Source: Owenia fusiformis
Taxonomy: Eukaryota; Annelida; Polychaeta; Sabellida; Oweniidae
Reading direction: 5' to 3'
Length of the DNA stretch: 64,000 nucleotides
Assembly: GCA_903813345.2 (NCBI GenBank)
Contig: CAIIXF020000005.1
Span: 15,131,375 to 15,195,374, forward strand
Below the pieces are notes generated by a model. That model saw only the letters and a program-made list of their open reading frames with translations, did not search any database and was not told the origin of the DNA. This document shows positions 3,525 through 53,061 of the stretch, piece by piece (position 1 is the stretch's first letter; the number at the start of each line of letters is the position of its first letter). Both the position numbers and the translations under genes were made by a program.

Positions 3525-6500
3525 TTCTTATTATTCTATCAAAGCATTTTTCTCCTACTTCCAACTAGCTTTCAACTACCTACTATATATCCTACTAGGA
3601 ACCTTGGCTGAAATTGGGGGGAAAATATTTTTTATCTAGGTCAAGGTCAAAGGTCAAAATCTAGGTCAAATCTAAGTTTTTTTTCAAGTTTCTCAAGTTT
3701 GTCATTATACTTCATTATTTCTTGCGATGAATTAAACTGGAACTACATTTAAGTATTCTCTACAAATTGTTCACTATATGTCAGCATTAAATTTTTACCG
3801 TTTTTGAGATATTTGACGTCAAAAAACGGTCAAAAGAGGTCAATTTTCAACTTGCTTCAATCTGACCAAATTTTTTTTTAAAAATCATCTACAAGTTCCC
3901 AGGAGTCCGATTCTGACTTCAGATTTGACCTTTGACCTTTAGTTGACCTTCAGTGACCTTCGAAAGGTCAGAAAAGTTGATTTTTCAAATTGAGTCTTTG
4001 GATTCAAATTTAGGTCAGCCTAATTACCAAAAGCCTACTGAGGTCTAAAAAAGTAAAAATTTCAAGGTCAAAGGTCAAGGTCATCAAATTAGGTCACAAA
4101 CTGTGTTATCTAAGTTTCTCATAGTTCAAGACTACAAATCAATATTTTTAATTGAAAGTCAAGATATACATTCCTCTAAGGGTTCTACACATATTAGCCA
4201 TTGACTATTTATTAAAATTTTGTCCCAGTTTTGAGATATAAGAGCTCAAAAACTGAAAAAGGTCAATTTTTCAAAGTTTATAAGGTCAAATTTTAACTTG
4301 ATTCAAATTCACCCAACTTTTTTTAAAAAATCATCTACAACTTCTCAGGAGTTCATATTTAACCTCAGATTTGACATTTGACCTTTATAGTTGACCTTCA
4401 GTGACCTTCGAAAGGTCAGAAAAGTTGATTTTTCAAATCGAGTTTTTGGATTCAAATTTAGAGTCAGCCTAATCATAAAAGACCTACTGAGCTCTAAAGC
4501 AGTAAAATTTTCAAGGTCAAGGGTCAAGGTTATCAAATTAGGTCAAAGGTCAAAATCTAGGTCAAATCTAAATTTTTTTCAAGTTTCTCAAGTTTGTCCT
4601 TATACTTCATTATTTCTTGCGATGAATTAAACTGAAACTACATTTTAGTATTTTAGTATTATTGTTCACAATATGTCAGCATTAAATTTTTACCATTTTT
4701 GAGATATTTGACGTCAAAAAGTCAAAAAAGGTTATTTTTCAACTTGCTTGAATCTGACCAAATTTTTTTTTTAAAATCATCTACAAGTTCCCAAGAGTCC
4801 AAATCTGACCTCAGATTTAACCTTTGACCTTTAGTTGACCTTCAATGACATTCAAAAGGTCAGAAAAATTGATTCTTCAAATTGAGTCTTTGGATTCAAA
4901 TTTAGGTCAGCCTAATTACAAAAGACCTACTGAGGTCTAAAAAAGTAAAACTTTTCAGGGTCAAAGGTCAAGATCATGAAATTAGGTCACAAACTGTGCT
5001 ATCTAAGTTTCGCAAAGTTCGAGACTACAAACCAATATTTTTAATCCCAAGTCGAAATATACACATTCCTCTAAGGGTTCTACACATATTAAAAATTGAC
5101 TATCTAATGGAATTTTGTCCCAGTTTGAGATATAAGAGTTCAAAAGCTGAAAAAAGGTCAATATCGAAATTTTTCAAGGTCAAATTTAAACTCGCTTCAA
5201 ATTGATAAAATCTTTTTTTGAAAATCATCTACAAGTTCTCAGGAGTTCACATCTGACCTCAGATTTGATATTTGTCCTTTAGTTGACCTTCAAATTGTCA
5301 AAAATGCCTAAGAGGGCCTCCGTGAGATTGCTTGCAATCTTCAAAAGTCTAGTTATTCTTTCAAAGCATTTTTCTTCTACTTCCTACTAGCTTTCAACTT
5401 TCTACTATATGCTACTACTAGATACCTGGTTTCCTCTTGATGGGAAAATATTTCATATCTAGGTCAAGGTCAAAGGTCAAAATCTAGGTCAAATCTAAGT
5501 TTTTTTTCAAGTTTCTCAAGTTTGTCCTTATACTTCATTATTTCTTGCGATGAATTAAACTGGAACTACATTTAAGTATTCTCTACAAATTGTTCACTAT
5601 ATGTCAGCATTAAATTTTTACCGTTTTTGAGATATTTGACGTCAAAAAACGGTCAAAAGAGGTCAATTTTCAACTTGCTTCAATCTGACCAAATTTTTTT
5701 TTAAAAATCATCTACAAGTTCCCAGGAGTCCGATTCTGACTTCAGATTTGACCTTTGACCTTTAGTTGACCTTCAGTGACCTTCGAAAGGTCAGAAAAGT
5801 TGATTTTTCAAATTGAGTCTTTGGATTCAAATTTAGGTCAGCCTAATTACCAAAAGCCTACTGAGGTCTAAAAAAGTAAAAATTTCAAGGTCAAAGGTCA
5901 AGGTCATCAAATTAGGTCACAAACTGTGTTATCTAAGTTTCTCATAGTTCAAGACTACAAATCAATATTTTTAATTGAAAGTCAAGATATACATTCCTCT
6001 AAGGGTTCTACACATATTAGCCATTGACTATTTATTAAAATTTTGTCCCAGTTTTGAGATATAAGAGCTCAAAAACTGAAAAAGGTCAATTTTTCAAAGT
6101 TTATAAGGTCAAATTTTAACTTGATTCAAATTCACCCAACTTTTTTTAAAAAATCATCTACAACTTCTCAGGAGTTCATATTTAACCTCAGATTTGACAT
6201 TTGACCTTTATAGTTGACCTTCAGTGACCTTCGAAAGGTCAGAAAAGTTGATTTTTCAAATCGAGTTTTTGGATTCAAATTTAGAGTCAGCCTAATCATA
6301 AAAGACCTAATGAGCTCTAAAGCAGTAAAATTTTCAAGGTCAAGGGTCAAGGTTATCAAATTAGGTCAAAGGTCAAAATCTAGGTCAAATCTAAATTTTT
6401 TTCAAGTTTCTCAAGTTTGTCCTTATACTTCATTATTTCTTGCGATGAATTAAACTGAAACTACATTTTAGTATTTTAGTATTATTGTTCACAATATGTC

Positions 6501-20504: not shown

Positions 20505-23500
20505 TGCTTCTGGTGTGGGGTAGTATGTAAGGGGGCCTTTAAGTTGCCATATATCTCCAGCATTACGTTTAGTTCCCCCAATTATATGGTCCCTTCTTGC
20601 CTTCAGCTTTAAGCCATAATTAGCCTTGATCACTGGTAGAGGTTTTATAGCTTTGGTGTAAGTGCTCTCCGTGGTGCCAAAGTTCTCAGCATCCTCAATA
20701 CGTTCTCCAGGATATAAAGGAAATGGTTCCTAAATGAGAAATGAAAACAGTGTTAAAGGCCCTATGAACATTTTCAAGCTTGAATTAGGGCCTTTAAAAA
20801 TTATTTAGGCCTCGGGCTTGGTCTGACATTGTCAAACTTTATTATTTGATTCATTGTACCTATAACATATATGAAAAAATAAATGATTATAAAAAAACAA
20901 TTCATTCAGTTATGTATCTGTCAAAACCTTCAACAAAGATAACATTTGGAAGAAGAGGAAGTAAAAATCAAATTAAATTCTTGCAAATGAACCAATATTT
21001 CAATACATACCTTATGTAATCTTATGCTAACTTCTCCAAACTTTTGCTCACAACTTTTCTCATGTACATAGTTACTGAAATTGAAAAAGATGAATATATA
21101 AAATCATTTCATAGGGAATAATAAATGATTGGTAAATATTTAGATCTAAACGATTGGTAACATTTAGATCTAAACAATTGGTAAACATTTAGATCCTTGT
21201 AGGATTAGATATCTATAAATGAGCAGGATATTCCAGTATTACCAGTATAAATTGCCGTCAATGTCACTAAGACTTTGGCAATTGTAAAGTTTTGTCAACT
21301 TGTATTGGAATAAAATAATGATGATTCATAAAAGAAAAAAAGTAACTTAGAATGAAATGTAAACAATATCTGAGCAAAATATTCATCAGGAGTCCAATTC
21401 TGAACTTTTATATATCGTAAATTCAATTGTTAATTTATGGTTTTGTCGTATACATGTATATTTAAGATAAAGCCAATTCTGAACTTTTCCATATATTTCT
21501 AAATTGCCATTTTTCTGAACTGAATGAAAAACTGATCATGTTGACTCCTTCAACTTCATATTATTAACAGGCAATCTCATTTTCTGATTCCTTTAAAAAT
21601 TCACATTTCAATTATTTGGATATCTCTGCAATTCATGAAAAGGCAACAAAAAGTGAATGTGCAGACAGATTTTAACTAAGCTGACTTTAAGTCACAAAAT
21701 TGATCCATGGATTTTGGTAAAACATAACATTACTGATGTCCAGACATACATCATAGATTGTTCATTGTTGAACAATAATGAACAGTAAATATGCAGTTTG
21801 ATTGGCTGAGAGTATTTAGCAATGGTTGAATGTTTAAATTCTTGTAATGAAATAAAAGTGACACTTATATTTGTATTCTTTTCAGTGGCGTAGCGTGGGT
21901 ATTTTGTGAGTGTACGCCGCGAGTAAGCGAAATAGACGTGCTTTGAGGGGGGTTCGGGGAAGGTCCCCCCAAGAAAAAAAGAAAGTGAAAAAGAAAATGA
22001 GATAGCATTTGAAGCGTTCTGGGGCGTTTGAAATACGAAATTCTGACTATTATTGACGAATAGAATGTAAATTATTAGCCATTTTTGAAGTGTGGGGCAA
22101 ATCAATATAAAAAATCAACTGTTTTCTAAATTTTGAGAGTACGCCATGGTGTTTTATGCGTATATGACGCTACGCCATTGCTTTTATTTATAATACATAT
22201 ACACGGTGAGCAACCATACCGCACCGGGGATCGACCCCGGTGCGTTACACTTTTCCCCGGAGCGTTGGTAACGCACTGTCCTTTTAAAATGGCGGACGGA
22301 AATGTGTTTCCTCCGGAGGAAACAAATAATAGTGGAAACCAGAGGTGAGTGAATATCTTTTAACACATTCCATTCTAAACACGATATATCAGGGTACCTT
22401 ATTAAAATTCCACAAAGCTGTAACATATCGGTATTATGTGAACGAAATGTAAATGCACCTTGAAAAATTCGAAGGAAAGTTAGAGGCTCGTCTAAAATGT
22501 TGTATTTCTTGTCAAAGAAATGATTGGAACAACCACAGATTTTTTTACTCAATAGAGATATATTTATAAACATACTACTCTTCAATATCTTACAATTCGA
22601 ACATTGTATAAGCGTCATTTATTTTCATGAAATGTACCTTCCAAAATTGATGGGGTAACGCACCGACACAAATCTACGACAATTTAGAAACGCACCGGTT
22701 TTATTTTTACAGGAAACAACGGAGAAGTTCTGGACTGCAAACTGGGCATTCAAGATACAAGAAACGCCTAATTGCACCTACCGTCACTACAAGCGACGCT
22801 GGTTGTACAAAAGCCTCAACTAACGATAAATCACTTAAGACACCAATCAATGCTAATACAAAGGCTATCAGAAGTGCTAGGAAAAATGCACCAAAGAAAA
22901 GAAAAAAGCCAAAAATTAGAAAAACATTGTTTGAACAATCACACACTGATTATGACATTGAAATTGAAAGTGCTATGAAACTGCTACCAAATGTCATATT
23001 GTGTCTCAGAAGACACAGTTTTTGCACCGAATTCATTATGCTACTAAGACTCCTCGCGAAAGACAAATTCCCAATGAATAACATATTTGGCTTCTTTTCC
23101 TGGAGGTTGTGAGGTGGTATTCCCTTAGTTCCACCTCAAACATGACGTACAGGTATGGTTGTTAGCTTTAGAAGCAAACCCTCACTCTGGAAGTACATTT
23201 CACATAACAAGGTATTTCATTGACCGTCCCCTGTCAGTCACCAATCCTAGATGGTGCACCTCCATGTGTTATAATATCATAGGAAAGCTCAATCAATTCA
23301 TGACTTATTAAAACAACTTTGATTAAGCTCAGCAGCTTTTACGCTCTTTTAAAGCTCTTAATGATACGAATAATAATGTTATTATTTGTCCCTCTCTTTA
23401 AACCCAATGTACAAATAGAAGCCATAAATCCAGCAAATTAGGATGATAGTGACGACAAAACATAAATCCACAAATTATGGTCCCAACAATCACTCGTTCC

Positions 23501-26500
23501 AATATTTAGCCCATAAGTGCATTATTAAACCAGAACAACGGCAACGCCAAAGCGTAGCGAATCCCATCGAACAGAAATGGCTGGCATTTTTACAAACGAA
23601 ATATATAGCAAACTTTTAAATGGTGGCCAATTTTCTTATTGGCCGCCTTCTACCAAAAATGTCATTAGACAGTGTGCCATGCTTATAGTATTCACATACC
23701 AAATATGAACAAAATCGCTCCACTACTTTTCAAGTTACAGCAAAAATCGTAAAATAACGAGTAAAGGCCGAGTAAAATACGTTTAAATGGCGGCCATTTT
23801 TCAAAATGGCCACCTTCTACCAAAAGTGTCATTAGACAGTGTACCATGCTTATCGTATTCACATATCAAATATGAACAAAATCGCTCCACCACTTTTCGA
23901 GTTATAGTAAAATACGTTAAAATGGCGGCCATTTTACAAAATGGCCGCCTTCTACCAAAAGTGTCATTAGACAGTGTGCCATGCTTATAGTATTCACAAA
24001 CCAAATATGAATAAAATCGCTCCACTACTTTTCGAGTTATAGTAAAATATGTTAAAATGGCGGCCATTTTGAAAAATGGCCGCCTTCTACCAAAAGTGTC
24101 ATTAGACAGTGTGCCATGCTTATAGTATTCACAAACCAAATATGAACAAAATCGCTCCACTACTTTTTGAGTTATAGTAAAATATGTTAAAATGGCGGCC
24201 ATTTTTCAAAATGGCCACCTCCTACCAAAAATGTCATTAGACAGTGAGCCATGCTTATAGTATTCACATACCAAATATGAACAAAATCGCTCCACTACTT
24301 CTTGAGTTACAGCAAAAATCGTAAAATAACGAGTAAAATCCGCCATTTTTCAAGATGGCTGCCATGTGCTTTTTTAATATCTACATTTCTAGCTTTATCA
24401 ATGTCCTATATAATTTTTTTACATTTAAAACATATTGCTATTACAGTTTTACATATTGCACCTAAATTACTGTAAAATCGGCACTAAAATGGCCACCATT
24501 TTTAAATGAGTGGCCATTTTGAAAATCGGCTTTCGAGCAGAACTTCTACCCCCATAGGGTATATGTGTACAAAATATGAACAAAATAGGGCCAACGGTAT
24601 TTGAGTTATTGCCCGGACGGACGGACGGACGGACGTACGGACGGACGGACGGACGGACGGACGGACGGACGGACGGACGGACGGACGGACGTACGTACGT
24701 ACGGACGGACGGAGGCGTTCCCTATATCCCTCCGAACTTCGTTCGATGGGATAAAAAGCTGTATGATGATGTATAGATTAAGAGAATCTAAAGGCCCATG
24801 TGATTTAGGATTGGTTTTGGATGGGAGAGGGTAATTATGAAACACCCTATACAATACACAAATGCATAAAAAATCAAAGTACGAAATGTGATAGTTTGCA
24901 AAATACGGTAATACATACTACAGGCGATAAAGATATGACACTTTCACTGGTCAGAATCAAGATGCGGTAACGACCGTTACCTTCTTATCTAAGATGGCGG
25001 ACAAAAAATATCGATTTCGATATTTTTTGTTTTCATCAAATTAAACTACGTATAATTGACACAATGCTTTGATATTTGAACTTGATAAGCCTTATATATC
25101 ATGGAAACTTTGGAGTATGATCATTTATTCTTAAATCATACACGGGCGCCATAATTCAATTATATGTTACACCGCTTAAGGGAAGGTAACTGAGAGTTTG
25201 ATTTTGCAAAATTCACTTCCATTTACCTTCCCTTAAGCGGTGTTACATACAGTTGAATTATGGCGTCCACGTATGATTTAAGAATAAATGGTCATACTCC
25301 TAAGTTTCCATGATATCTTAGATTTATCAAGTTCAAATATCAAAGCATTACGTCAACTATAAAGTAGTTTAATTCGATGAAAACAAAATATATTGAAATC
25401 GACATTTACCATCCGCCATCTTAGATGAGAAGGTAACGGCCGTTACCGCATCTTGATACTGACCAGTGACTTTGATAACATTTCGTGTGTATCCGTTCTT
25501 ATACCCTGCAGCAAATGGTATAAAATTATTTCACAATTATCAACGTAAAAACTAAACCGTACATTTCCAAATGAATAAAATATTGTATACTTTGAACATC
25601 AGTACCAATCGATTGAAAGCGTTATTGTTTCGTAGGGTAGAACTACACTCAATGCATTTGTGAATGGGTGTGTCAAAAAATCCGTCTTGCCCCTAGTTCC
25701 ATACATATACCCTTTCCCATCCTCATTTTAAAATTTATAGATTTGAATATATCGTTTCTAACGATTGTACCATAACAATTATATGTATACTTTAATACTT
25801 AGCGAGGAAACTCTAACCTTCTGGAAAGTTGGCTACCGGATGTTCCATGGGAAATTCTTGCGCTTCATGGGTGGAACAAAGTCAGTTGCTGCATTAGTGG
25901 AATCGAAAGAACAAGCGGGGCAGTACGATCCTCAGCATGAGGATCACACTATCAATTTATTGTTCTTATGTTATCAGTATGACCTATAATATAGGGTAAT
26001 ATTAACAAATGAATAAAGCACCGGTGCGTTTCCAAATATTGGCCTAATATGACCGGTGCGTTACAACTAGATTTAGTGATATCTCATAAAACTGACCACC
26101 ATTTAACTCCTAAACTGACACAATTTTGCATGCAACCATAAGGATCATGTTGATAAGATATATTCTCGCACAATCTAGGAATACTCTGTATATTTCATAA
26201 AAAGAATAAAAAACATCAAAATATTTTAATGTTGCTTGTGCTTTTACATCTTGTTTGCATTATATAGGCTAGTTATCACTGATCTAATCGATCTGGATCA
26301 TTCCTTAATATATTGTACTTTGAATGGTACATAGGAGTTCTTCGTACCTAATCACGAAACATCGTAAATCAAAAATTTCTACTCGCGTCCATTATGCATT
26401 TATCATTGTCCGCCATTTTTCTTCACTCCGGAGCGTTACAATTTAAGTGTAACGCACCGGGGTCGGTCCCCGGTGCGGTATGGTTGCTCACCGTGATATA

Positions 26501-29500
26501 GTGCCATTATCTTTAAGCATTAAAATGTGCTGAAGTCAATTTTGAACCTATTTGTATGCATAAAATCTGTATTCACTAGTTTAGCTACAAGCTCTTGTGA
26601 GACTCCCCCCCCCTCCTCCTTTCAAGCTACCAACATATAAACATCCCCCAAACACACAGGCATCAAGAACTTGTACTAAATGATGGCTGGACCCCTGTAT
26701 TCGAGGATGACATATAAGACCCAAGTTAATAAGCCAGATTTCTTTAAACTCTAGGCTTACCTGAACCTTGATAGTTAGTAGGGTTATCAGTGATCTCCCC
26801 AGGATTTTTCTCAGGTGGGTGCCAAATTCTCATTTTCACAATTCAGACCAAAATTGGTCAAAATATGCCAATTTTTCACAATTTTTCTTAATTTCAAGTG
26901 GGTGCAAATGGATTTTCAGGTGGGTGCAAGCCTATTTTCAAAATCCCAAGTGGGTGCTGCGCCCACTTGCTTTAATGCTGGGGTAGCTCACTGGTAATAG
27001 TATTACCCAGTGAGTTTGTATTTTGCCATACTAGTATAATTTACCTGACCGGGTCTTTAACAACGCAGAAGTGTCCAGGTGGAACTATGACAAAGGGGAA
27101 TGGACCACCAGCTAGTCTCTCATTTGTTTGAATCACAATCGTTTGAGGTCCCGTCTCAAGTTTTGTAATGTTGGTTGTCTACAATAAAATAATTGAACCT
27201 GTTATACTGCAGGGTAAAATTGCTTTGCTGCGAAGCATTTTTCTTGTCATAAGCTTTTTTGTGTAACACCTCCACCTTCTAAATAGAGAAGCTTCGGTGA
27301 TAACAGAGCAATTTACTAAAAAGAAAAAGAGGTTATATCCCAATGAAAGGATTGGGGAAGGGGGGCAACTTTTTAAACCAAGTAGGGTTTCTCAGTTATA
27401 ATGCTGTACGCGTAATACTTGTGTTATTTAAAGTAATGGGCTCTCGGAAGCTCATTCCATATAATAAAATCAATGAAACCCTAAACTTGTGAAGATTGTA
27501 AAATAGAAATTCTTTGACAAAAATAGTGCTATAAAATACTTCAAAAACATCCTTTCAAAATGAAAATGATTATGATAAAACCTCTGGACTAAACTGATAT
27601 TAGATAGCTAAAAATGTTTTGAAAGGTCAATTTGTCTTATAAATATGTTTTAACTGAGAAACACGAAGGTAGAAATGATTAATTTCAGTCAATATTCTGT
27701 TTTTAAAATGTCTTAAAGAGTGACCAGATCAGCTTGACCTTGGAGTTTTAACACAGGCCATCAATTTCACTCCCAAATATGGAAGGTGCAAAAATTGAGC
27801 TGTCAATCAAATATTGAACTGTAAGGAGAATTTTATTTGGCTTGATTGTAAACTTTGCAATGATTTTTATCAGACCCAAAATTGAAGTATTCTCACAATG
27901 TTCAAAATTGAAAGTAATTATTTGATAATAATTATGTACAGGTTAGTGTGACCTTTTTGGAAACAAAGGAGGAGGGAAGTTAGCGCAACAGATTTTGGAC
28001 AGTCATATGTTTGATTTTGGCCATTTCCTGGGGATTTAAAAAGGTGCATATGTTCACGGTGCGGTAGCCAAACTGCTTGCCTACTATGCACGCAGTTTGA
28101 AAGACTGACAAACTGCGCGCCTATCAACATTACATCATAAAAGTTGGAGTCTGTGTTTTCAAACGTCATTTTAAGACATTAATTCTGAATTGTTTTGTAG
28201 TTCCACACGTCCATTCAGTGGCGATTATATGATTCAACCATGTGATAGCGAAATGCATGTCCAGATGAATGTAGGTTTAAAAATATAAGCAGATTAATAC
28301 AAAAAATTGACATCGATTTTTCGATCACTGATACATAAGTTGATATCGCACGTTTCACAGAAATAGAAAACACTTAGGTTTTGATTCACAGGTAAATCTC
28401 AACCCAGTCCTCCCGTGCAATACAAAATATTTCGTATTAAAACAGATGAACATGACAGAAAGAAGTAATAAAACACAAACTGCGCGCCTATTTTAGCCCG
28501 AAATCACAAACTGCGTGCATACTCTTCCAAACTGCGTGCATATTATTGATGACTTCTCAGTAATGCAGGCCTATGTGATTTCATGGGAGTACGTAAGTAA
28601 GTTGAAAAGGTAGAGATTGAAAAGGTTCAAATAAATCAAAAACTAAAATTGGGTTGATGGTTGACAACCAGTGGAAATGTACATATTTATATTTTATTTT
28701 GTTCTTGTCTATATGATTTAATGATGCAATGATTCGACTTCATCATATAGAGTTGAGTTCAAAAATCTCATGAAATGGTTTTGTTCTATTGGGGTCCTAC
28801 TAAAAGACACCCAGGTGGCCCCCGCCTAGTTCCCATCGAAGTGCCGAACCTGCCTATTTTACTACTTTATTTCAAACTAGCACTATATGATGCAATGGTG
28901 CAACATAAATACAATACGTTCATAAAAATTGTGTAAATATATATTGAATCCTTTTTATTTATATTTTTGATTGATGCAGTCCAAAAAGCCATTTCTTAGA
29001 ATTCAATGAATTCCTCATTATAAAATACTATAAAAATTCACAGTTTTAGCAACACGAGTAAGAAAAGATATTTACAGCAATCTCACTCTTTCGACTTGAA
29101 ACTTTGTTTATTACCCATGTTACCATAAATAAGTGACCATGCATGCATGACGAGCAAAAATTCAGAAATTCAAAACTTTTTCACTTAAATCTTTGAATTT
29201 TTGGGGATACAATAGTTCCGAGTCTATTTTATAGCATATGCCAAAGGAAGTAATACTTGAATGTCCGGACTGCAGTACATGTATAGCATACGAGCCTGAT
29301 AAATCCAAAGAAATTGAGGAAGGGTTGACACAATGTACTATTTCTTTTAAGGTTTGAGAGGACATCGGGCAAGAGGTTTTCACAGTCTGTTAATGTTTTT
29401 TCAAATGAGTCACTGGTACCTTTAAATAATTGCCTCTTTGGTTTCTTGATTGGTTTCCTTTTCTTCACTGGTGCGTTTTAGAATAACATCTTGTTTAATT

Positions 29501-32500
29501 CTGAAGGGGGTGTCATGGTTTTTGAAGATGCGCTGTTGTTATCTACATCTTTGTTAGGGTCAGGCTTTGGTTTCTTTTTATATAGGGACAGGTTTAGTGA
29601 GTGGCGTTTACGTTTTCTGAAATACACAACAAACTTGCACACAGCTTGCAAATTAGGCGCGCAGTTTGTAAATATAGGCGCGCAGTTTGTAAATATTAGG
29701 CACGCAGTTTGTGAAATCCACGTGAAAGTATGCACACAGTTTGACAGCGAAAAAAAATAAAATCACGTTAATGGCTTGTCACTGTTTAACACACAAACTA
29801 TATTACTTAAACCATGTGCAGCAATCCTATATCTTTCAGAATATGCAAACACAAAGGCTGAATAAACGTCAAACTATGAAAAACAGACATTATATGACGC
29901 AACACTGTATAATTTTAACACGAAAGCTCCTTGGGAACCTTATTTTGAGATAACTAGATATGCATCGGGAAAAAAATCGAGTGCTACGTATAAAGTAAGT
30001 TAGTCTCCACATCTTGCTACTGTCTGAAAACCAAAATTAACCTAGTATTTCCAGTAATTTCCATCCTCTTGGGAGTCGTGTCCTCCCCGTCTGCCATTTT
30101 GTGCATAGGCGCGCAGTTTGTCAGTGTTCCAAACTGCGTGCATAGTAGGCGCGCAGTTTGCCTACCGCTCCGTGATGTTAGGCAAATGCATTACCTCCAG
30201 GAAAATCACTTCTAGAGACGATGAAATAATTTCGACTTTGAGACAGGGTAGATGCAAACAACCCACCCACATGTTTTTTCTGAAATGTTTTCCTGATTTT
30301 CAACCCCTTCCATCCTTGCTTTTTTAATTTTTCTTGCATCAATATGTTGCGTTTTGACACACAGTTAATCCCTTAAAAGGAATAAATGATTCCTTTTAGA
30401 TAAAGTGGAAAACAATATTTCCCATGTTATTTTCCCATAGGAAAAATCATTGCTTTCAGCTAAGTTTGGTCACCCATAATGGGTATCTTTAAAACCCCTG
30501 ATGGAATCACTTATTCCTTTAAAGTAGTTAACTATGTGTCAAAATGCAACATATCTATGCAAGAAAAATTAAAAAAGCAGGGATGGAAGGGGTCGAAAAT
30601 TAGGAAAACATTTCAGAAAAAATATGTGGGTGGGTTGTTTGCATCTACCCTGTCTCAAAGTCGAAATTATTTTATCATCTTTAGAAGTGATTTTCCTGGA
30701 GGCAATGCATTGGCCTAACATATGCAATTGTTTAAATCCTCAGAAAATGGCCAAAATCGAACATATGACTGTCCAAAATCTGTTGCGCTAATTTCCCTCC
30801 TCCTTTTGAAATTCATATTACTTTTTTTAGCATAATGAAAGTCATACTTTTTGTCAATCGATTCTAAACAACAGCATAAATATTCCCTCCAAGCCATTTT
30901 AAAATCATTACTTCATCATTCTAAGATTCAAAAATGTGAAATATAACATCATCATCACTAATTCTAAAAAGATTCAAAACTGCAACTCTTTTTGCATCTA
31001 TAGAATCAGTTTTACTTCTATCAGTTTTGTTAAGTTACAGAGTTAGACTTACAGGGTAGATTGGTACTAAGTTATTGAGTTAGTTTCTCAGTTACTTAGT
31101 TACTTTAAAACAATTTTCAATCACAAAGCCTGCCATTGGCTTTATACATGAGAAAGTTCCCCTGAAAATAACAGTCCTTACTTTTTGTCAAATGTTATGG
31201 AGTAAACACCGAAAACTGTAATTCCAAGAGCTTTCAAATCTTCACAGGAAATACATGTATGTTACAAATGGCAATGGCAAATGGCAATGACCGGTCAAAT
31301 AGTAGATAAACAGGGTGTTTCATAATGACCATCCCCCCATCCAAGGCCAATCCTAGATCACGTGGCCCCATAATCTATATACCATCGTAAAGTATATTCA
31401 ATTCTGGACTAATGTTTCAAATTTTAACATGACTGGTCAATGAGAACATAATTTGTAAATTTGTTTTTTTGATAATCACTATACCCTCAGTTTGTGTGAT
31501 TTGTGGCTACCATTTCTAAAGAGAGGAGCATATTGCTATATAATCCTTTGAATCACCAAGAGCTCTCTGGGTATTTCTTTGAAATATTCAATACTTGTGT
31601 CTTTCAAATATCATTGGGATATATCCTCAGCATCCATCAAATGTTATAAGTTGTACATTACTATAGATAATAGTGTATTGAGGCATGGTTATCATAGCCG
31701 TTTGCAGGGCACTTGGCTAAATTTTGAAAAAAAGATATCAGATTCTATGCTTGTGAGGCTAATGTTGACGGATCGCAAAACCTACCATTGACAATTTTTT
31801 TAGAGTTCCCTGAAAATGATAAAGTTACTCAGACTTAGACTAAGGCACATGTACTAAGTTATTGAGTTAGTTACTCAGTTACTAAGTTACTTCCCTTTCA
31901 AACAATTTTCAATCACAAAACCTGCCATTGGCTTTATACAAGATACATGAGAAAGTTCCCTGAAAAGCAATGTTATAGAGTAAATACTGAAAACTGTTAT
32001 TCCAAGAACTTTGAAATCTTCAGAGGACATACATGTATGTTGAAAATATAGCAACTACTAACATTTATTTGAAAGTATTTCTAGCAGTTTTAATTTGTGC
32101 AGCCAATGTCTAGTCATATAAATCCGATCGCTGAATACTGTTATTTGTTGTTATTTTTTTTTCTTATTTGGATATTTATTTTTTATTATTTTCTTGCATA
32201 CAGTGATAGTAAACACTTGCCTCTTTTATATTGTGGGAAACGCTTTCCGACCTTAGGCATGTAAAATGATTAGTAATTGTAGAAATATAAGCATGTTGCT
32301 TGAATTTTTTTTTTTCATTTTGATGTACCAAGATCACTTCCGGGCTAATCTGTTCAGCGTTCTCACCAAGATATTTTTAGACCCCAGATTTTTTGCGGTA
32401 TTGCGACTTCATCCTGTTAGTATACTTTTCAAAATACCTTATACGTTTATCTTCTTATTTGGAACATATTAACATTTCTAAAAGGTTTCTGACTTCCTAC

Positions 32501-46992: not shown

Positions 46993-53061
<6,069 letters not shown>

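Follow-up and report, generated by a model that had tools for sequence, protein, structure and literature searches.

How can two neighbouring transposons keep the same plan, down to the spacing of short repeated words near their ends, when the words themselves differ, and what is the basic protein that both seem to encode? The question is raised by a 64,000-nucleotide stretch of the genome of the annelid Owenia fusiformis (contig CAIIXF020000005.1, positions 15,131,375 to 15,195,374 of the forward strand; hereafter the window), which holds two elements with terminal inverted repeats (TIRs). A preliminary description had assigned both to one family, in which each element carries a GC-rich repeated word, or iteron, that matches its own ends, and had proposed that a shared basic protein changes together with these sites, perhaps for transposition or for regulating its own splicing or transcription. 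We think it likely that both elements derive by internal deletion from a single DNA-transposon lineage, that they are non-autonomous and mobilised in trans, and that the iterons are cis-acting sites for the transposase of this lineage. The two elements are as follows:

22202-26495, plus strand: element 1, a TIR element of 4294 bp, interpreted as non-autonomous; target-site duplication (TSD) ATATA at 22197-22201 and 26496-26500.
28055-30174, minus strand (that of the gene remnant): element 2, a TIR element of 2120 bp, interpreted as non-autonomous; TSD ATGTT at 28050-28054 and 30175-30179.

The ends agree with the common plan that had been described. Both ends of element 1 read CACGGTG, those of element 2 read CACGGTG and CACGGAG, and the TIR arms match over 51 bp at 98% in element 1 and over 70 bp at 91% in element 2. 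Among the complete copies retrieved from the genome (498 Mb in 525 contigs), an exact 5-bp TSD flanks 11 of 12 distinct ones, namely the two window elements and nine of the ten others; L017 (= L020) is the sole copy lacking one. The heptamer CACGGWG alone is not diagnostic, since it has 10 matches in the window against 3.85 expected and one of 100 shuffles is as high. Patterns for the TIR ends give 50 element-1-type ends genome-wide (at most two mismatches), 77 element-2-type ends (at most one mismatch to a degenerate pattern) and 521 ends (259 + 262; at most two mismatches) of a third type, that of a relative labelled L069, with no match to the reversed control pattern in any of the three cases. 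Many of the first 100 L069-type ends listed pair about 1.27 kb apart, forming a burst of short elements (with L084, at C9:9614395) that looks recent.

Each element has its own iteron, both in its TIRs and further inside, as had been claimed. The element-1 word AACGCACCGG (at most one mismatch) occurs 13 times in the window against 0.69 expected, with 11 of the matches inside element 1, and the element-2 word AAACTGCGCGCC (at most two mismatches) occurs 12 times against 1.17 expected, always inside element 2; neither count is attained by any of 100 shuffles. The words occupy four zones symmetric about the element ends, roughly 16-67 bp and 420-520 bp in from each:

22202-22266, unstranded: left terminal block of element 1, with the TIR at 22202-22252 and iterons at 22218-22227 (plus), 22237-22246 (minus) and 22257-22266 (minus), 18, 36 and 56 bp from the left end.
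22657-22698, plus strand: left subterminal iteron cluster of element 1, 457 and 489 bp from the left end, within the predicted intron preceding exon 2.
26015-26062, unstranded: right subterminal iteron cluster of element 1, 435, 467 and 472 bp from the right end.
26428-26495, unstranded: right terminal block of element 1, with the TIR at 26445-26495 and three iterons 18, 36 and 60 bp from the right end.
28055-28124, unstranded: left TIR of element 2, with iterons 16, 33 and 56 bp from the left end.
28477-28540, plus strand: left subterminal iteron cluster of element 2, 423, 454 and 475 bp from the left end.
29656-29710, minus strand: right subterminal iteron cluster of element 2, 465, 487 and 508 bp from the right end, in the predicted intron preceding exon 2.
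30105-30174, unstranded: right (gene-side) TIR of element 2, with iterons 16, 33 and 56 bp from the right end.

The preliminary description placed the inner iterons by the acceptor of exon 2. They do lie beside it on the gene side, and it is on this side only that the acceptor comes after the cluster. Because an inner cluster is also found on the end away from the gene, the acceptor is not what positions the sites; the clusters are symmetric about the ends of the element.

What, then, remains of the gene? The ATG lies 88 bp (element 1) and 78 bp (element 2) from the element end, in the range of about 10-90 bases given earlier, and on prediction from the DNA both elements fit a 56-nt first exon that ends at a GT donor, joins an AG acceptor in the same phase and yields an R|K junction. 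The predicted exons and remnants are:

22289-22344, plus strand: predicted exon 1 of element 1, 56 nt, MADGNVFPPEETNNSGNQ plus 2 nt, donor GTGAGT.
22713-23152, plus strand: predicted exon 2 of element 1, with a basic region, NAPKKRK and the start of a conserved region; its end is a GT donor placed by eye.
25803-25960, plus strand: exon 3 remnant of element 1, beginning ETLTFWKVGYRMFHGKFLRFMGG; its start is an AG acceptor placed by eye; homologous to amino acids 217-270 of L069.
29316-29616, minus strand: exon 2 remnant of element 2, beginning KRKRHSLNLSLY, with a TAA stop ahead of NAPVKKRK; homologous to L069.
30042-30097, minus strand: predicted exon 1 of element 2, 56 nt, MADGEDTTPKRMEITGNT plus 2 nt, donor GTTAAT.

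A basic region opens exon 2 in both elements, as had been described; the accompanying NAP.KKRK motif holds for element 1 and lies beyond the stop in element 2. The NAP codons of element 2 (29468-29477) contain a near-copy of the element-1 iteron (AACGCACCAG), which we take as a coincidence. In the window, exon 2 of element 1 differs from that of copy L073 by a 3-nt deletion and by a 1-nt deletion that shifts the frame. Compared directly, the exon-2 peptides of the two elements are weakly alike (E=0.385, 30% identity). A search with the element-1 peptide retrieves longer relatives, and it is through the larger protein of one of these, L069, that the relationship becomes clear: exon 2 of element 1 aligns to its amino acids 72-216 with E=2.5e-17, exon 3 aligns with E=5e-17, exon 2 of element 2 aligns with E=9.8e-5, and a longer element-2 copy at C1:44423301 reaches E=3.6e-25. 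Because both align to this protein, the genes of elements 1 and 2 are homologous, and the expectation that they align better than random basic proteins is upheld. The homology of element 1 to L069 ends at the exon 3 remnant, and the "basic protein" is the N-terminal stub of a much larger one. A repeat at 26781-26921 of the window also matches the tail of the 559-amino-acid frame of L069 (60% identity, E=1.2e-9), and therefore this tail may be an intron repeat rather than protein.

We now consider whether the plan extends to other families. The predicted 56-nt exon 1 with its GT donor, AG acceptor and R|K junction recurs in five gene copies (elements 1 and 2, L069, L070 and L071), each of which carries a private iteron. 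Measured from left ends only, the L069 iteron AAACGCTCC stands 16, 37, 67 and 454 bp from the end, words like AACGCGGCGCAG stand at about 17, 434 and 499 bp in L071 (with the end set at a CAAGGTG that we identified by eye at L071:1386), and words like AACGCAGTCCAG stand at 58, 431 and 494 bp in L070. When 40 of 710 first-look candidates are scored against the L069 end, 39 reach 85-86%. One of them, L084, which is 83% identical to L069 over 526 bp, also has the L069 word; in these first 526 bp the word lies at about 16, 38, 67, 455 and 488 bp, and the iterons are in place even though there is no start codon at the position of exon 1. These five gene copies and one gene-less relative support the claim that the word changes between families while the distances are roughly kept. 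It does not extend to every copy, as the inner cluster is present in six of the ten types or copies inspected.

How constrained are the iterons? For element 2, 40 of 508 first-look candidates were scored, and the best 29 after the window's own are compared with the window copy across the outer 560 bp on the gene side, deletions counted. Changed positions number 7 of 2088 in the iterons and 565 of 14151 in the rest, which makes the iterons about 12-fold less changed. By columns, with the window locus included to make 30 copies, variation within positions 1-540 touches 5 of the 72 columns that belong to iterons and 130 of the remaining 468 (Fisher p=5.6e-5); of 539 circular shifts only the two by a single base equal the score of the iteron columns. 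Taken alone, the inner cluster has 3 variable columns of 36 against 48 of 174 around it (p=0.017). These p-values are rough because the copies share ancestry. Exon 1 enjoys no such protection, with 17 of its 56 columns variable in the same copies.

The longer relatives reveal more of the protein of which the stub is the N-terminal part. A search with the C-terminal part of the large protein gives 22 matches, which we group into eight gene loci (E<1e-6), plus eight weak matches to a piece of 44-46 amino acids. Single open frames reach 1438 amino acids in L075, 1460 in L076 and 1221 in L078, and L069, L071/L077 and L079 hold pieces of the large protein in exons. The Pfam YqaJ nuclease model matches L075 (1.3e-8) and L076 (8.9e-6) above its cut-off and L069 (0.005) below it, and gives no match in L078 or in the cut L077 frame; TIGR03033 matches L075 (6.2e-6) and L078 (0.0027), both under that model's cut-off. 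A D and an ExK, which we take to be the active residues of YqaJ and lambda exonuclease, can be read in all six proteins and are found by script in five, the script having matched a wrong stretch in L076. In L075 and L076 the YqaJ domain is in the same frame as the conserved motifs that flank it, as it is in L078 by alignment and the sub-cut-off TIGR03033 match. Upstream of it stands xxDGK...GDIDLxG (LDLKK...GRIDLANFE in L076; the L079 piece lacks the D), and downstream follow FDGQW, DxxH(I/L)xxNxR and ENFFG, the L075 frame stopping before the last of these; the D/D/E-like motifs align across the paralogs. Toward the N-terminus, exon 2 opens with a basic region in all five gene copies with the 56-nt exon, and a C2H2-like finger can be seen by eye in L075 and, for L076, in a frame that lies directly upstream; of the paralogs read, these two are the most distant (the L075 finger is weak in Pfam, best E=0.0061). 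An N-terminus that acts as a replaceable DNA reader would fit this pattern. A scan against NCBIfam returned only the nuclease, a PHROGs scan gave nothing useful, and two pattern scans of viral contigs produced 27 and 28 matches, none confirmed as relatives. Downstream of the large gene, L087:40-200 and L077:3784-3972 share by eye a stretch MST(S/A)(R/K)RPVYPQ(Q/H)KLD, possibly a further exon or a second gene.

From this architecture a mechanism may be sketched. The fuller members encode a protein of more than 1,200 amino acids with a variable N-terminus, a conserved region, xxDGK...GDIDLxG, the YqaJ nuclease, FDGQW, DxxHxxxNxR and ENFFG, which we read as a DDE (RNase-H-type) transposase distantly like that of P elements, with a nuclease inserted in its catalytic core, and which would carry out cut-and-paste transposition. 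This protein would bind the iterons, of which each end has two or three near its TIR and a further one to three some 420-520 bp inside, pair the ends, and cut and paste with a 5-bp stagger. The private word of each family would result from divergence of the N-terminal reader in step with its sites. Copies that lost the enzyme to deletion yet retain both end regions would be moved in trans, their 5' exons being decaying leftovers. The nuclease might process the ends or take part in repair, both of which are guesses. How much of the element such mobilisation may need is suggested by L074 (C7:38777000-38786900), a 10.2-kb element-1 copy that matches element 1 only over about 539 bp per end (at one end the match is in two stretches, and the roughly 50 bp separating them fell outside the data); this suggests that the outer 540 bp may suffice, and from the short copies L085 and L086 the requirement may be smaller still. 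Both flanks of L074 fit the pattern from its left 5 bp, and the flanks fit a shared TSD (eight 5-mers fit, a chance of about 1/128 at equal base frequencies). The interior of L074 is about 9.1 kb of other DNA with a C2H2 zinc-finger frame at L074:798-1166 (zf-H2C2_2, 3.5e-9, below that model's cut-off); nine family protein pieces find no match in L074 at E<=0.01, and captured host sequence is a possible reading of this interior.

Several results weigh against this interpretation. The inner cluster is missing in four of the ten types or copies inspected, namely L082 and L083, which are diverged element-1-like copies, and L085 and L086, which are element-2-like at 83-86% (526-566 bp examined in each); in L070, position 16 lacks an iteron and exon 2 is stopped at its third codon. 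TIR spacers also vary little in the element-2 copies, with 7 variable columns of 44, compared with 2 of 36 for the TIR iterons, so that constraint within the TIRs is not specific to the word, and the clearest contrast is that between the inner cluster and its surroundings. An autonomous element complete with its two TIRs did not turn up: for L069, 1.3 kb of additional sequence does not contain the right end and shows instead, by eye, a further possible coding stretch (in L087), and L077 shows no iterons. The assignment to DDE transposases is likewise weak. PF21787, the P-type RNase H model, matches the FDGQW (second-D) stretch of L077 with E=0.00097, below its cut-off, and misses the other five of six members; PF21788 (GTP-binding insertion) and PF21789 (RNase H C-terminal) match none of the family proteins scanned. 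The same genome holds a P-type transposase gene, L081 (C7:36772900-36774700), in which PF21787, PF21788 and PF21789 all score above cut-off and which matches structure 6p5a with E=3e-11. Alignments of the family with L081 by hhalign give p values of 0.12, 0.33, 0.095 and 0.23, no better than shuffles; in hidden Markov model scoring L081 ranks 86 among mostly shuffles, and the second-D profile does not report it; and the pairwise scores of the six members to L081 are attained by 133 to 990 of 1000 shuffles. Profile searches of the PDB with the C-terminal and second-D blocks return no transposase. Given the weak PF21787 match, the shuffle-level scores to L081 and the absence of a PDB transposase, DDE catalysis is something that we infer, and the likeness of the large protein to P elements is weakly supported.

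Could the short basic protein nevertheless be functional, binding the iterons to regulate its own splicing or transcription or acting as a repressor? In its favour, on the gene side the exon-2 acceptor has iterons directly before it, four element-1 copies outside the window retain open exon-2 frames of 161-172 amino acids, and repressors are known to be encoded by non-autonomous P elements, an example being the truncated KP protein of 207 amino acids (PMC7776569). Set against this are the symmetry of the clusters, which includes an end with no predicted exon nearby, and the state of the coding sequence. Ten copies of the element-1 stub compared with L073 show 40 nonsynonymous and 11 synonymous codon changes plus two stops, where the sites stand at about 346:98 (changes common to several copies are counted repeatedly), and so the stub drifts at the neutral ratio; frame-breaking indels are present in 6 of 10 copies (window, L016, L017, L018, L019 and L024). 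With the stop in element 2 and the ATG-less L084 added, we reject a self-regulating protein for the present copies and regard a functional short protein in any of these roles as improbable.

If the elements are deleted copies moved in trans, to which known system might their parent belong? Transib and RAG have 5-bp TSDs and CAC...TG ends, and the 5-bp TSDs and heptamer-like (CACNNNG) CACGGTG ends found here recall Transib, ProtoRAG and RAG; the iteron arrays and the nuclease in the same protein set the present elements apart from them. PDB searches with the C-terminal and second-D profiles contain no RAG1 or Transib chain at E<=10, and Pfam scans of the family proteins contain no RAG1 model, although a missing sequence match leaves a shared fold possible; with no sequence support from the profile searches, we consider membership of the Transib/RAG lineage unlikely. 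Short repeated words near both ends that serve as transposase sites are also a feature of Ac/Ds and En/Spm; the word in the present elements differs between families and its distances from the ends stay similar. In the literature searched, CACGGTG together with a terminal inverted repeat leads to work on V(D)J signals (PMC9723617). ISL2EU, of the PHIS superfamily, is reported to carry a YqaJ protein (PMC4482050; PMC9179366), a likeness to the present elements; there the YqaJ is an open reading frame separate from that of the DDE/THAP transposase and the TSD is a 2-bp AT (PMC4482050), whereas here the YqaJ is fused in frame with the other conserved motifs (L075 and L076, and L078 by alignment) and the TSD is 5 bp. 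On TSD and reading-frame layout we reject membership of ISL2EU, an identity to which we give very little credence. P elements combine TIRs with 10-bp sites for the transposase and 11-bp inverted repeats in subterminal position; their TSDs are 8 bp long, and non-autonomous copies with internal deletions exist, some of which retain an N-terminal coding stub (PMC7776569). In the zebrafish THAP9 element, also with 8-bp TSDs, the subterminal inverted repeats measure 12 bp and the spacers 400 bp (PMC7776569), a distance similar to the 420-520 bp seen here. By eye, the order of the D, DxxH..N.R and E motifs is similar to that of P-type DDE transposases. Unlike P elements, the present lineage has its first acidic motif separated from the second by a YqaJ nuclease, and a single word repeated in the TIRs and again further inside. 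On its 5-bp TSD, as opposed to 8 bp, we reject a canonical P element, for which the profile support (one member of six) is weak. Finally, PMC7826175 mentions, with a 2018 citation, transposons fused to viral-type exonuclease genes; it does not give element structure, TSD or iterons, and identity with the present lineage cannot be told from it. Our literature search for a YqaJ-fused transposase turned up no description of these elements in the passages found. By the features compared, the parent is neither ISL2EU nor a canonical P element and may be an undescribed lineage. We put forward tentatively, at somewhat less than even confidence, that it represents a new superfamily among the DNA transposons of eukaryotes: its DDE transposase would hold a lambda-type exonuclease in its catalytic core and would read an interchangeable word, repeated at nearly fixed distances from both ends (about 16, 35, 60 and 420-520 bp), reader and word being replaced together from one family to the next.

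Other repeats lie within or against these elements. Element 1 contains two:

23530-24752, unstranded: nested repeat insertion, absent from copy L073, with self-similar repeats and, by eye, a GGAC-type microsatellite.
24944-25469, unstranded: palindromic repeat of about 526 bp, 87% self-complementary, present in L073 too.

The self-similar repeat of the first recurs in the window at 50731-51504. At L069, frames that by eye resemble the tyrosine recombinase and RNase H of DIRS-like retroelements (L069:2174-4192, minus strand) adjoin or cross the left end of the transposon at 4057.

The recognition of ends is usually studied one transposon at a time. Here at least five sister gene copies, and the ends of short elements by the hundred, lie in a single genome, sharing a similar geometry and using different words, and such sister families allow a direct test of whether a DNA-binding domain and its sites diverge together. 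The parental transposon is a more interesting object than the short copies that led to it. If our reading of it is right, its transposase, with an exonuclease of lambda/YqaJ type built in, would be an unusual enzyme, given that in ISL2EU the nuclease is a separate protein (PMC4482050); one would then have to ask whether such elements trim their own ends or influence how the break is repaired.

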